Assembly: GCA_022616275.1 (NCBI GenBank)
Contig: JAKEFB010000023.1
Coordinates: 1-51,431, forward strand
Reading direction: 5' to 3'
Source of the DNA: Chloroflexota bacterium
Lineage (GTDB): Bacteria; Chloroflexota; Anaerolineae; Promineifilales; Promineifilaceae
DNA length: 51,431 nt
The position numbers and the translations under genes are program-made. Shown here one piece after another: positions 6,558 to 13,263 of this stretch; the stretch's first letter is position 1, and each line of letters opens with the position of its first letter. The notes under the pieces were generated by a model that had not been told where the DNA came from, did no database searches, and saw only the letters and a list, made by a program, of their open reading frames with translations.

Positions 6558-7253
6558 TCACGATTCCGCCAATTCCTCCAGCCGCTGGCGGTCCAGGAGG
6601 GTGATGTGCTTACGGCTGATGTCAACCAGGCCGGTGGCCTTAAAATCGTTTAACGTTTGGGTAATGGTCTCCCGGTAAGTGCCCAGCAGATCTCCCAGAT
6701 CCTGGTGAGTGTAGCCGTGGACCTCGCGGTCGCGGCCCTGCTCGTCGGCCAGGCGGAGGAGCAGGCTGGCCAGCCGGGCGGGGATGCTCTTGAAAGCAAT
6801 TTCCTCCAGATGGGCCTCCAGTTGGGTCAGGCGGCTGCCTAGCGCCTCGACAAAGCGAAAAGCCACCTGGGGCTTTTCGCGCATCAGTCGCTCCACGTCG
6901 GCCCGGCTCATGACACATAGCAAGCACTCGTCAACAGATTCGGCGAAGGTGTTGTGCATCCCCTGGCCGACCAGCGACATCTCACCAAACATGGCCCCAG
7001 GGCCAAGCGTGGCCACCACCAACTTCTTACCGCTGGGGGAAATCCGGTACAGTTGCACCCGTCCTTTTTTGAGTAAAAACAAGACTTCGCCGCTGTCTTC
7101 CGGCATGTAGAAGATTTTGCCTGGCCCGCAGGAGGCCATCGTAATCTGCCGGTCCATCTCCGCCAGCTCGCCTGGGCTCAGGTCCCGGAAGATATCAATT
7201 TTGGACAGGTAGCGTAGTTTACTTTCTTGCATTGGCGACCAACCAAATTCCAT
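6558..7253 (-). CDS. Crp/Fnr-family transcription regulator 1
   Basis: It has an N-terminal cyclic-nucleotide-binding-type beta roll (about residues 20-130, with [13 protein letters not shown]), a dimer helix and a C-terminal winged helix with recognition helix [14 protein letters not shown]. It is a close paralogue of the regulator at 12571-13263, and the recognition helix is identical. It lacks the FNR N-terminal cysteine cluster but has a CxxC (ECLLC) in the sensor domain, also present in the paralogue, so thiol or metal sensing is possible but unproven. I kept the start at 7253 because it gives the same N-terminal length as the paralogue; an internal ATG at 7232 is possible, and neither has a clear ribosome site. 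It lies 33 bases downstream of the Tat lipoprotein gene and is probably co-transcribed with it. Confidence 0.93.
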
Positions 7254-10015: not shown

Positions 10016-10717
10016 CTACAGCCCGGCTTCGTCGAATTCCCGGACCGCTTTAGGGCCGTTGCGGGCCAGCCCCTTGTAAAAACCTTCCCTGTCACTGGTA
10101 CGAAAATCCAATCGCTCCACCCGGAAAGGGACCAGATGTTCACGTCTCCGCCGCCGCCGGACGACATCCAGGAAGTATTCAATGGCGTTGGCCACGCTGT
10201 GGGCGTCTGTCCAATCGGCCTTGTAGACAGGCGCGCCGGAGCGGGCAAAAATCCAACTCATATTAGGCATGGAGCCATAGGCGCGATGGCAGGCCCCGTC
10301 AAGGGCGTCTAGCAAGATGGGCCGGGTCACTCCCAGCTTGTCCCGCAGTTCGCGGGCGTGGGCCAGCTTCTGCTCAAACGAGGTCAGGTGGGGATAATAT
10401 TCGCCGGGATGGGCCTCGTGGGTGTAGAGGAAAATGGCGCCAACACCCTGGCCGGCGTACTTCTCGGCGATGGCATTCATGGATGGCGCCGCCATCCCAC
10501 AGTATGGTCAGGTGAAGCTGCCAAACTCGACAATGGTATAAACGTGGCGCGACCAGATTTTGCTCAGGCGCGTTTGCCGGCCGTCCAGGCGCCAGAGGGG
10601 AAAGTCGGGAGCCGGCTCGACCAGGGGCGGGCTGGCGTCGAAGTTAAGCCAGGGCGTGACCTTCTCTGGGGTAAACTCATCGTAGTTGTAACGGCTAACC
10701 AGGTCTGACTCACTCAT
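10016..10717 (-). CDS. Deiodinase-like thioredoxin-fold protein, probable selenoprotein (in-frame UGA at 10508-10510)
   Basis: Two open frames, 10717-10508 and 10507-10016, are in the same register and separated only by one TGA. Reading through gives a 233-residue protein with ...EFGSFT-U70-PYC73-GMAAPSMN..., where the TGA falls exactly on the redox position. The flanks match the iodothyronine-deiodinase family (Phe-Gly-Ser-x-Thr-Sec-Pro, then about 25 residues later a Tyr-Thr-His-Glu-Ala-His-Pro motif), a family in which bacterial Sec forms are known. The start ATG has a GGAG site. The Sec is followed at +3 by Cys, giving a UxxC pair. A hairpin of bSECIS type begins 10 bases after the UGA (separate entry). 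The likely role is selenol/thiol peroxidase or reductase chemistry, not hormone metabolism. The alternative is a nonsense mutation, but both halves are well preserved. Confidence 0.8.
10481..10497 (-). promoter_or_regulatory. Candidate bacterial SECIS hairpin for UGA decoding
   Basis: On the coding (minus) strand, 10 bases after the UGA, GGATGGC pairs perfectly with GCCATCC around GGC. If the innermost G-C pair opens, the apical loop is CGGCG, exposing two guanines about 18-19 bases after the UGA. Bacterial SECIS elements lie within the coding region a few bases after the UGA with a G-containing apical loop at roughly 16-37 bases, so position and shape agree. A bulged U like that of E. coli is not evident. 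Confidence 0.6.
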
Positions 10718-10862
10718 CGTTTCACTCCCATTTCGTCCAACATGCTACTGTCCTCCAGGCGGGCAGTCAAGCAATGCTTTTTAACCTGCCGTACGTCCCC
10801 AGTTTACCTGGCCCAGGCGCTACGTCTGTAGCGTAGCCGACAAATGGCGGCCGGCCACGTTT

Positions 10863-10951: not shown

Positions 10952-12226
10952 ATGATAAAAGAAGTAGCCCAACAGCGAACGTGGTGGCTGGCGGCTTGGC
11001 TGCTTTTAGCCCTGGCCGCCTGCGCTCCAACTGGGGGCGAGCCGGCCGCCCAGGCAACAACCACCAGGCCCAGGCCCACTGAAGCCCCGGCGGCCGAAGC
11101 AGTGGAAACGGCCGTCCCAACCGAAGCGGCGGCCGGGGAAGACGTAGAGATGATGACCGAAGATGATCGCTCTGACATGCTGCGGGCACTGACCCGGAGC
11201 TGGAACACCAATTGGAACCGGCACACCATCCGCTATGAAGAAATCCTGTCCGGTGGCCCACCGCGCGACGGCATCCCCTCGATTGACGACCCGCAGTTCA
11301 TCAGTCCGGCCGCGGCCGGGGAGTGGCTGGCCGGCAACGAGCCGGTTGTTGCCCTGGAGATTGACGGAGACGTCCGCGCCTACCCGCTGCAGATTCTCAC
11401 CTGGCACGAGATCGTCAACGACGTGGTCGGCGGCGTGCCGGTGATTGTCACCTTTTGCCCCTTGTGCAACTCGGCCGTCGCCTTTGACCGCCGGCTGGAG
11501 GGCGAAGCCTACGAGTTTGGCACCTCCGGTCTGCTGCGCCACTCTGACCTGATTATGTACGACCGGACGACGGAAAGCCTGTGGCAGCAGTTCACCGGGG
11601 AGGCTATCGCCGGCGACCTGGCTGGCAAACGGTTGACTTTTCTACCGTCGTCACTCGTCAGCTTTGCCGATTTCAAAGCGGCCTACCCGCAGGGCGTGGT
11701 CTTGTCGCGGGAGACGGGCTACGACCGCGACTACGGCCGCAACCCTTACGCCGGCTACGACAACATTGACTCAACGCCATTCCTCTTCCTGGGCGTCCCT
11801 GATGACCGGCTGCCGCCGATGGCCCGGGTGGTGACGGTCTCTTTTGAGGACGTGGACGTGGCCTACCCACTGGACATCCTGGCCGAGGCCGGCGTGATTA
11901 ACGACACGGTGGCCGGGCGCGAGCTGGTGGTTTTCCACACCGCCGGGACGAGCAGCGCCCTGGACGCCTCCGAGATTGCCGCCGGGGCCGACGTGGGCGC
12001 AACCGGCGTCTTTGATCCTAACCTGGATGGACAGACGTTAATATTCAAGAAGGTAGGAGAGGCCATTGTGGACGAGCAGACCAACAGCACCTGGAACATC
12101 CTGGGCCAGGCCATTGACGGTCCTCTGGAGGGCCGGGCGCTCACGCCGATCGTCCACGGCGACCACTTCTGGTTTTCCTGGGCGGCGTTTAAGCCGGAGA
12201 CGATTATTTATCGTAACGAGCACTAG
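10952..12226 (+). CDS. DUF3179 lipoprotein 1
   Basis: The start at 10952 has AAGGAG 7 bases upstream. A lipoprotein signal (LLLALAAC, Cys24) precedes an Ala/Thr/Pro/Glu-rich linker and an acidic stretch, so the protein sits on the outer face of the membrane. The rest is a full DUF3179 domain: AYPLQILTWHEIVND, then TFCPLCNSAVAFDR with a CPLC pair, then GLLRHSDLIMYDR and a C-terminal half with STWNILGQA. The biochemical role of DUF3179 is not established; the conserved CPxC and His residues suggest metal or thiol chemistry (inference). The CRP-type promoter upstream and the thioredoxin-like and Crp genes downstream suggest a regulated extracytoplasmic redox function. A paralogue is at 14800-15918. 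Confidence 0.92.
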   Translation: MIKEVAQQRTWWLAAWLLLALAACAPTGGEPAAQATTTRPRPTEAPAAEAVETAVPTEAAAGEDVEMMTEDDRSDMLRALTRSWNTNWNRHTIRYEEILSGGPPRDGIPSIDDPQFISPAAAGEWLAGNEPVVALEIDGDVRAYPLQILTWHEIVNDVVGGVPVIVTFCPLCNSAVAFDRRLEGEAYEFGTSGLLRHSDLIMYDRTTESLWQQFTGEAIAGDLAGKRLTFLPSSLVSFADFKAAYPQGVVLSRETGYDRDYGRNPYAGYDNIDSTPFLFLGVPDDRLPPMARVVTVSFEDVDVAYPLDILAEAGVINDTVAGRELVVFHTAGTSSALDASEIAAGADVGATGVFDPNLDGQTLIFKKVGEAIVDEQTNSTWNILGQAIDGPLEGRALTPIVHGDHFWFSWAAFKPETIIYRNEH

Positions 12227-12301: not shown

Positions 12302-12571
12302 ATGCTTAAGTTAAAGATTTTCGTCAGCGATGATTGTTGGTCGTCTGAAGAGTCGCGCCGGATTGCGGCGGAGACGCAGGCCCGCTTTGCCGATGTCGAG
12401 GTTATGCTGATTGATTTACACAGTGACGAAAGGCCGCCCAACGTTTTCGCAGCGCCGACCTACGTTCTGAACGAACGGGTTATCTCCTTAGGAAATCCGC
12501 GACGAGAAGCGCTGTGGGAGCAACTGAGACAGATGAAAAACGATTACCCTGACGGTGGAGGTGTTGCTTAA
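12302..12571 (+). CDS. Small thioredoxin-fold protein with CxxS active site
   Basis: An 89-residue paralogue of the protein at 9696-9974. It keeps the first cysteine (C12-W-S-S15), the acidic linker and the cis-proline motif APTYVLNE, but the resolving cysteine is replaced by serine. Monothiol CxxS thioredoxin-fold proteins can still form mixed disulfides or bind ligands but cannot complete the usual dithiol reduction. The ATG at 12302 was chosen because the conserved fold begins there; upstream residues are not protein-like. Its stop overlaps the start of the Crp-family gene by one base (TAATG at 12569-12573), so the two are translationally coupled, which suggests this protein works with, or signals to, that regulator (inference). 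Confidence 0.85.
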   Translation: MLKLKIFVSDDCWSSEESRRIAAETQARFADVEVMLIDLHSDERPPNVFAAPTYVLNERVISLGNPRREALWEQLRQMKNDYPDGGGVA

Positions 12572-13263
12572 TGGCATTGGTATCGGACGAACGACTTAGG
12601 GAAAAGGTAAATTATCTCTCTATGATCGAAATCTTCCGCGATTTGAGCCGGAGAGAACTGAAGGCCATGGATCACCAGTTCACCATGACGGCCTGTAAGG
12701 CGGGAAAGATTTTTTACATGCCTGAAGACAGTGGCGAAGTGCTCTTCTTGCTGAAGAAGGGACGCGTTCAGCTCTACCGGCTTTCCCTCGAGGGCAAGAA
12801 GATTGTGGTCGCATTCCTGGGTCCCGGCGCTATTTTCGGCGAGATGTCCCTGGTCGGTCAGGGAATGTACTCTACCTACGCCGAGGCCGTGGAGGAATGC
12901 ATCCTGTGTGTGATGAGCCGTCCCGACGTCGAACGGCTGATGCGGGAGAAGCCCGAGGTGGCGCTCCGCATTGTCGAGACGCTGGCCAAGCGCCTGGTTT
13001 ACATGGAGCGCCAGTTGGAAGAGGTTGCTTTTAAGTCTATCCCTGCCCGGCTGGCCAGCGTGCTTCTCCGCCTGGCGGGCGAGGCCGGCAGCAGCGAGGT
13101 CATCGGCTTTACCCACCAGGATTTGGCCGAGTTGCTGGGTACTTATCGCGAGACGATCACGCAAACGTTGAACGATTTCAGGGCCATTGGGCTGGTGCAG
13201 CTCGAGCGCAAAAAGGTGATTCTTACCGACCTGGCCGGCCTTGAGAACGTGGCTGAGAACTAA
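12571..13263 (+). CDS. Crp/Fnr-family transcription regulator 2
   Basis: 230 residues: cNMP-binding-type beta roll ([13 protein letters not shown] around residues 86-98), dimerisation helix, and winged helix with recognition helix G190[13 protein letters not shown]. Arg193 and Glu194 match the E. coli CRP residues that read GTGA; the third contact (Arg185 in CRP) is Gln198. A CxxC (Cys110, Cys113) lies in the sensor domain. It has the same recognition helix as the regulator at 6558-7253, so both should bind the same sites. It is coupled to the CxxS thioredoxin-fold gene upstream, and GGAGG precedes the start. The ligand is unknown: the beta roll keeps a GE near the phosphate-binding position, but the full cAMP-binding set cannot be confirmed by eye. 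Confidence 0.93.
   Translation: MALVSDERLREKVNYLSMIEIFRDLSRRELKAMDHQFTMTACKAGKIFYMPEDSGEVLFLLKKGRVQLYRLSLEGKKIVVAFLGPGAIFGEMSLVGQGMYSTYAEAVEECILCVMSRPDVERLMREKPEVALRIVETLAKRLVYMERQLEEVAFKSIPARLASVLLRLAGEAGSSEVIGFTHQDLAELLGTYRETITQTLNDFRAIGLVQLERKKVILTDLAGLENVAEN

Follow-up and report, generated by a model that had tools for sequence, protein, structure and literature searches.

Comparative evidence for a deiodinase-like UxxC selenoprotein with a conserved RNA hairpin in a Chloroflexota bacterium

Deiodinase-like selenoproteins of bacteria were reported in 2005 from the Sargasso Sea (4 sequences; PMC1088965), the Global Ocean Sampling (GOS) data yielded 22 of them (PMC2398784), and Table 1 of a 2026 inventory lists deiodinase-like proteins (PF00837) having selenocysteine (Sec, U) in a UxxC motif (PMC13188914). 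DUF3179 is likewise already listed as a selenoprotein family (PMC13188914, Table 1; PMC9312934). Given these reports, the kind of protein considered here is already known. We describe a minus-strand gene with one in-frame TGA on contig JAKEFB010000023.1 of a Chloroflexota bacterium (GCA_022616275.1; positions 1 to 51,431, the whole stretch of 51,431 nucleotides being referred to as the window). The original prediction had regarded such a protein, located beside DUF3179 and Crp genes, as a new context; this was overstated, because deiodinase-like UxxC and DUF3179 selenoproteins are both on record (PMC1088965, PMC13188914). The accessible parts of the literature searched contain no report of a deiodinase-like selenoprotein from Chloroflexota, and none of a pairing of deiodinase-like and DUF3179 genes.

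The features at the centre of our analysis are:

10016..10717, minus strand: probable deiodinase-like selenoprotein gene of 233 codons with one in-frame UGA (Sec70), from open reading frame (ORF) reading and homologues
10508..10510, minus strand: in-frame TGA, probably read as selenocysteine (FGSFT-U-PYC), conserved in 57 of 60 homologous loci
10481..10497, minus strand: stem-loop resembling a bacterial selenocysteine insertion sequence (SECIS), GGAUGGC-GGC-GCCAUCC, 7 pairs with loop GGC, from comparative RNA evidence
10725..10729, minus strand: Shine-Dalgarno-like GGGAG, 7 nt 5' of the ATG, seen directly

Starting from ATG 10717, the minus-strand ORF reaches TGA 10510-10508 after 69 aa (...VEFGSFT); beyond it, the frame stays open as far as a stop at 10018-10016. 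Translation of the TGA as U yields a 233-residue product with a single U at position 70 (VEFGSFT-U-PYCGM), so that the ORF reading bears out the predicted single TGA between two in-register ORFs at FGSFT-(UGA)-PYC. The downstream half has its own in-frame ATG at 10495 (159 aa ORF). A promoter scan gave one 9-of-12 match upstream (10770-10742), which is not evidence, and a terminator-like match at 10457-10438 falls within the gene (1 found, 0.8 expected from shuffles).

A scan for homologues, restricted to one genome per species, found 60 loci; Cys forms were not disfavoured, since one of the peptide patterns employed carried Cys at the UGA place. An in-frame TGA occupies the Sec70 codon at 57 of the 60 loci, that is, at 56 identified by motif and at L072, where the frame breaks only after the TGA (as it also does in L073, one of the 56). 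The remaining three are unreadable in frame: the frame of L076 is broken immediately ahead of the codon, L074 is without the N-terminal half, and L078 has N. No in-frame sense codon was seen at this position among the readable loci, which answers the question that had been posed about the UGA column. Most of the 60 loci are labelled Chloroflexota or a group therein, the other labels being Planctomycetota, Latescibacterota and Acidobacteria (one record each) and Neomarinimicrobiota (two). Conservation at the protein level is found on both sides of the UGA, and U70 and C73 of the UxxC motif are present in all rows of our 56-row alignments (55 loci and the window; L072, L073, L076, L074 and L078 were left out). 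A sequencing error at the TGA is rejected, as the same codon appears in numerous separate assemblies. As side observations, contig JACRBQ010000036.1 holds two family members, L025 and L073, the latter frame-broken after the UGA; in L085/L102 (G130), L072 and L076 the frame is broken or a stretch is missing close to the UGA or behind it, owing either to sequencing errors or to decay.

In bacteria, the UGA is usually separated from the SECIS loop by 16-37 nt. In the window, a 7-bp hairpin starts exactly 10 bases 3' of the UGA (stem 10497-10481), as had been predicted, with a UGA-to-loop spacing of 17 nt; it lies close behind the UGA and exposes a small apical loop with G, as is characteristic of bacterial SECIS elements (as described in PMC1088965). 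It is the comparative data, and not folding stability of the single sequence, which lead us to judge this hairpin to be more than chance: (i) in codon-constraint counts over 44 representatives below 90% identity, fourfold-degenerate third positions within the hairpin are nearly fixed (mean entropy 0.26, 4 columns), compared with a mean entropy of 1.67 elsewhere in the gene (51 columns, lowest 0.73), (ii) the first loop base is G in 56 of 56 aligned rows, (iii) the stem pairs in 97.0% of 364 cells, versus 29-59% for slid versions, (iv) three distinct rows replace the A-U of pair 16-28 by C-G and one replaces it by U-G, while pair 15-29 becomes U-A in a single row, and (v) when a 27-nt segment is compared with 200 synonymous shuffles, no more than 5% of these reach an equally good fold in 54 of 56 genes (exceptions L028 and L069), and against other segments of its own gene it ranks in the best 5% in 36 of the 56.

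The wider group was explored by a profile search of 400 Chloroflexota genomes, 19 of which contain a relative at E 1e-10, 14 of these with TGA. The more distant UGA relatives read UPPF (L088, L089, L101) or UPIT or UPLA (L095-L097), and at 9 of 14 more distant UGA sites the minimum-energy stem lies in the same place with a different sequence (by eye); stem comparison among distant relatives is, however, weak evidence. Relatives without Sec carry Ser (L090, L092), Gly (L091), Cys (L093, L099), Asp (L094) or Ala (L098), and L090, L091, L092, L094 and L098 are possibly non-redox or differently acting proteins. In a tree of 44 rows (24 from the 56-row alignment and 20 loci from the 400-genome search; L079, L085, L100 and L102 left out), a branch with 100/99 support separates the 31 UPYC rows from the others; a number of terminal branches are long, and the positions of the distant rows are uncertain.

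The genome from which the window derives encodes a complete Sec system, comprising tRNA-Sec (70.2 bits; anticodon UCA according to ARAGORN), SelA (469 bits), SelB (334 bits) and SelD (366 bits, with one TGA inside). All four genes that had been proposed for inspection (selA, selB, selC, selD) are thus found. For 50 of the 60 loci the genome was searched for SelA, and 42 of these genomes have a match, one of them (G032) only weakly; of the eight genomes lacking it plus G032, seven have SelB over cut-off, the exceptions being G026 and G003. Across the 400 Chloroflexota genomes, SelA is present in 322; it occurs in 16 of the 19 genomes holding a relative and in 12 of the 14 whose relative has UGA, and G320 (UGA, no SelA) has SelD over cut-off with a TGA inside.

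Joined across the UGA, the protein matches NCBIfam NF038285 (deiodinase_rel) with E 1.3e-13 over residues 29-167; the match is significant, but it covers only positions 175-324 of the 347 in the profile and its 51.2 bits lie below the cut-off of 250. Similarly, Pfam T4_deiodinase (PF00837) scores just under its cut-off (25.2 bits over residues 31-156, against 27), and mouse DIO3 is matched with E 8.8e-5. For the joined protein, the predicted match to the deiodinase-like family on both sides is therefore confirmed. Two other Pfam families, Redoxin (33.3 bits) and AhpC-TSA (31.6), exceed their cut-offs and score above T4_deiodinase. Since PF00837 and NF038285 score below cut-off, annotation may miss the protein or call it only a redoxin. 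The predicted structure is a thioredoxin fold of the deiodinase type, with DIO2 and DIO3 as the closest solved folds, and the Ser-x-Thr-Sec and Tyr-x-x-Glu-x-His set is present, as matched by motif and spacing to the active-site residues given for deiodinases in PMC7506546 and PMC11592359. Sequence, active-site residues and predicted fold thus all support a deiodinase-like identity.

Taken together, Sec machinery, UGA column and hairpin support the earlier proposal of a probable selenoprotein: the locus very probably encodes one soluble protein of 233 residues with UGA70 read as Sec, a deiodinase-type thioredoxin-like fold and probable thiol/peroxide-type chemistry. Comparative support for a selenoprotein gene is strong. 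Frame, UGA conservation, RNA constraint, machinery genes, predicted fold and conserved residues were computed, and we infer Sec insertion itself, the reaction, the resolving role of Cys73 and the reductant. The hairpin would recruit SelB with Sec-tRNA(UCA), so that the ribosome could decode UGA70 as selenocysteine. Sec70 would then be the attacking residue, and Ser67, Thr69, Tyr98, Glu101 and His103 might act as proton relay or loop anchor, as known from deiodinases. A peroxide, a disulfide or a similar electrophile is the likely substrate, to be reduced by selenolate attack; Cys73, the likely resolving thiol, would form a bond with Sec70, and a thioredoxin-type reductant might regenerate the enzyme.

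A number of observations weigh against this view. Folded alone, the 63 nt after the UGA yield z 0.40, with 129 of 200 shuffles folding as well. Five of the 14 more distant UGA sites (L081-L084, L095) fold otherwise, and a stem is located at the same place in two of seven relatives without Sec (L093, L094; by eye). Across the wider group the redox residue is not kept throughout, as is evident from the Ser, Gly, Ala, Asp and Cys of distant relatives, and co-occurrence with SelA cannot discriminate, since so many Chloroflexota genomes have SelA. Genome G003 (CP070790.1, labelled Planctomycetota; 4.3 Mb, one contig), whose locus L021 carries the UGA gene with an intact hairpin, shows no SelA match and neither SelB nor SelD over cut-off; what scores best as tRNA-Sec there is a tRNA-Ser. 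The machinery search came out the same way for G026 (1.2 Mb), where SelA, SelB, tRNA-Sec and SelD all fall short of the cut-off and SelD gives no match at all. In these two genomes this speaks against a Sec reading, provided that the records are complete and unmixed. G267, which holds a distant UGA relative and is 86% complete, has no SelA and no SelD over cut-off.

If the TGA were a true stop, the locus would represent a decayed gene, or two genes of 69 aa and of 159 aa (from ATG 10495). The standard code, the in-frame ATG of the downstream ORF, the frame breaks at L072, L073 and L076 and the lack of Sec machinery in G003 would agree with this, but the in-frame TGA recurs at 57 of 60 loci in records of several phyla, with protein conservation on both sides and extreme synonymous constraint directly after it. 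Decay would not preserve UGA, flanking protein and synonymous constraint together; hence a decayed gene or pseudogene is rejected, and a true stop is very improbable. Even less credible is that suppression or a changed code inserts an ordinary amino acid (Trp, Arg, Cys) at the UGA: the same full-length protein would result, but TGA is also the final stop of this gene in many loci, the genome has a full Sec system, a conserved hairpin follows the UGA, and the UGA sits at the redox residue of the thioredoxin fold. Recoding to another amino acid is therefore rejected.

A different question is whether the selenoprotein reductively dehalogenates a halogenated compound, as animal deiodinases do. The closest solved folds, DIO2 and DIO3, and the retained Ser-Thr-Sec-Tyr-Glu-His set speak for such a function. 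However, AHxxDGW, which opens the deiodinase substrate loop (PMC7506546), is absent from the window protein and from the rows of a 24-row alignment (A2; 23 loci and the window), with AHPGExYPH instead; a UxxC motif whose Cys73 is invariant corresponds to the arrangement in thiol oxidoreductases, and Redoxin and AhpC-TSA outscore T4_deiodinase. Dehalogenation is thus unlikely, if clearly less so than a stop or ordinary readthrough, and we favour a Sec70/Cys73 thiol- or peroxide-type enzyme.

The neighbouring genes of the window are:

10952..12226, plus strand: DUF3179 protein with lipoprotein-like start, Cys form (VTFCPLC), divergent neighbour; PF11376, 363 bits
14803-15945, minus strand: second Cys-form DUF3179 gene (ISWCPLC); PF11376, 273 bits
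9687-9974, plus strand: small thioredoxin-like ORF (CWVCQES); Pfam Thioredoxin_3, 24.3, just below the cut-off of 24.8
12302-12571, plus strand: small thioredoxin-like ORF (CWSSEES), by eye; no Pfam hit
6558-7253, minus strand: Crp/FNR-type regulator-like ORF, by eye
12571-13263, plus strand: Crp/FNR-type regulator-like ORF, by eye

The DUF3179 and Crp neighbours named in the original prediction are thus present, the former according to Pfam and the latter by eye only. The two Crp/FNR-type ORFs look similar by eye and flank the selenoprotein and DUF3179 genes; the two thioredoxin-like ORFs also resemble each other by eye. Other genes repeatedly found nearby, across the 60 loci and the window, encode YjeF_N (at 9 loci and in the window), a pyridine nucleotide-disulphide oxidoreductase (at 11 loci) and a VTT-domain protein (at 9 loci). 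In the genome that contains the window, DUF3179 occurs in three copies (the third on another contig), none with an internal stop, and no Sec form is found; the DUF3179 protein of the window is linked to the deiodinase-like family only because a Sec-DUF3179 gene sits directly upstream in some other genomes. Specifically, upstream sequence of 1 kb or more is available for 47 loci, and 7 of them (L019, L025, L028, L034, L046, L052, L059) have directly upstream a same-strand DUF3179 gene with in-frame UGA (VTWUP[ILV]CYTG), at distances from an 8 nt overlap to a 62 nt gap (the start codon of L028 is unsure), and L019 has a second Sec-DUF3179 copy about 1 kb further upstream. A common 6-bp hairpin is found at 7 of 8 DUF3179 UGA sites, L059 folding differently; read through its UGA, the L034 protein scores 197 bits with PF11376. 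It is tempting to speculate, albeit tentatively and with the odds somewhat against it, that the two proteins work together as a redox module of two parts that depends on selenium. A single transcript would then yield two selenoproteins of unknown function, and a soluble deiodinase-like member and a lipoprotein-like DUF3179 would serve one redox route.

Standard gene callers would split this gene, and our analysis settles the case with comparative RNA evidence of unusual strength. It also indicates that a deiodinase-type active site, including the proton-relay residues, occurs with Sec in bacterial proteins without the animal substrate-loop motif, and that such proteins reside mostly in Chloroflexota. 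The main interest lies in this deiodinase-type centre within a UxxC protein and in the Sec-DUF3179 tandem of some relatives, which gives a clue to the function of two selenoprotein families that are so far uncharacterised.

Iodothyronine deiodinases, the enzymes that process thyroid hormone, carry UPPF. Like DIO1-3, its top structural match, the window protein has Sec after Ser-x-Thr as well as Tyr-x-x-Glu-x-His; it differs in having UPYC, in the missing AHxxDGW loop start, in showing no visible hydrophobic N-terminal segment and in having a bacterial hairpin inside the gene. With the Redoxin and AhpC-TSA (peroxiredoxin-like) UxxC selenoproteins it shares Pfam scores over cut-off and UxxC, whereas its predicted structure and active-site set are nearer to deiodinases. 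The published deiodinase-like selenoproteins (PMC1088965, PMC13188914), with MFL2763324.1 and MBO99264.1 as representatives, are likewise bacterial, with Sec in UxxC and a bacterial SECIS element. Cys forms were among those reported in 2005 (PMC1088965), whereas the present clade has Sec at every readable position.
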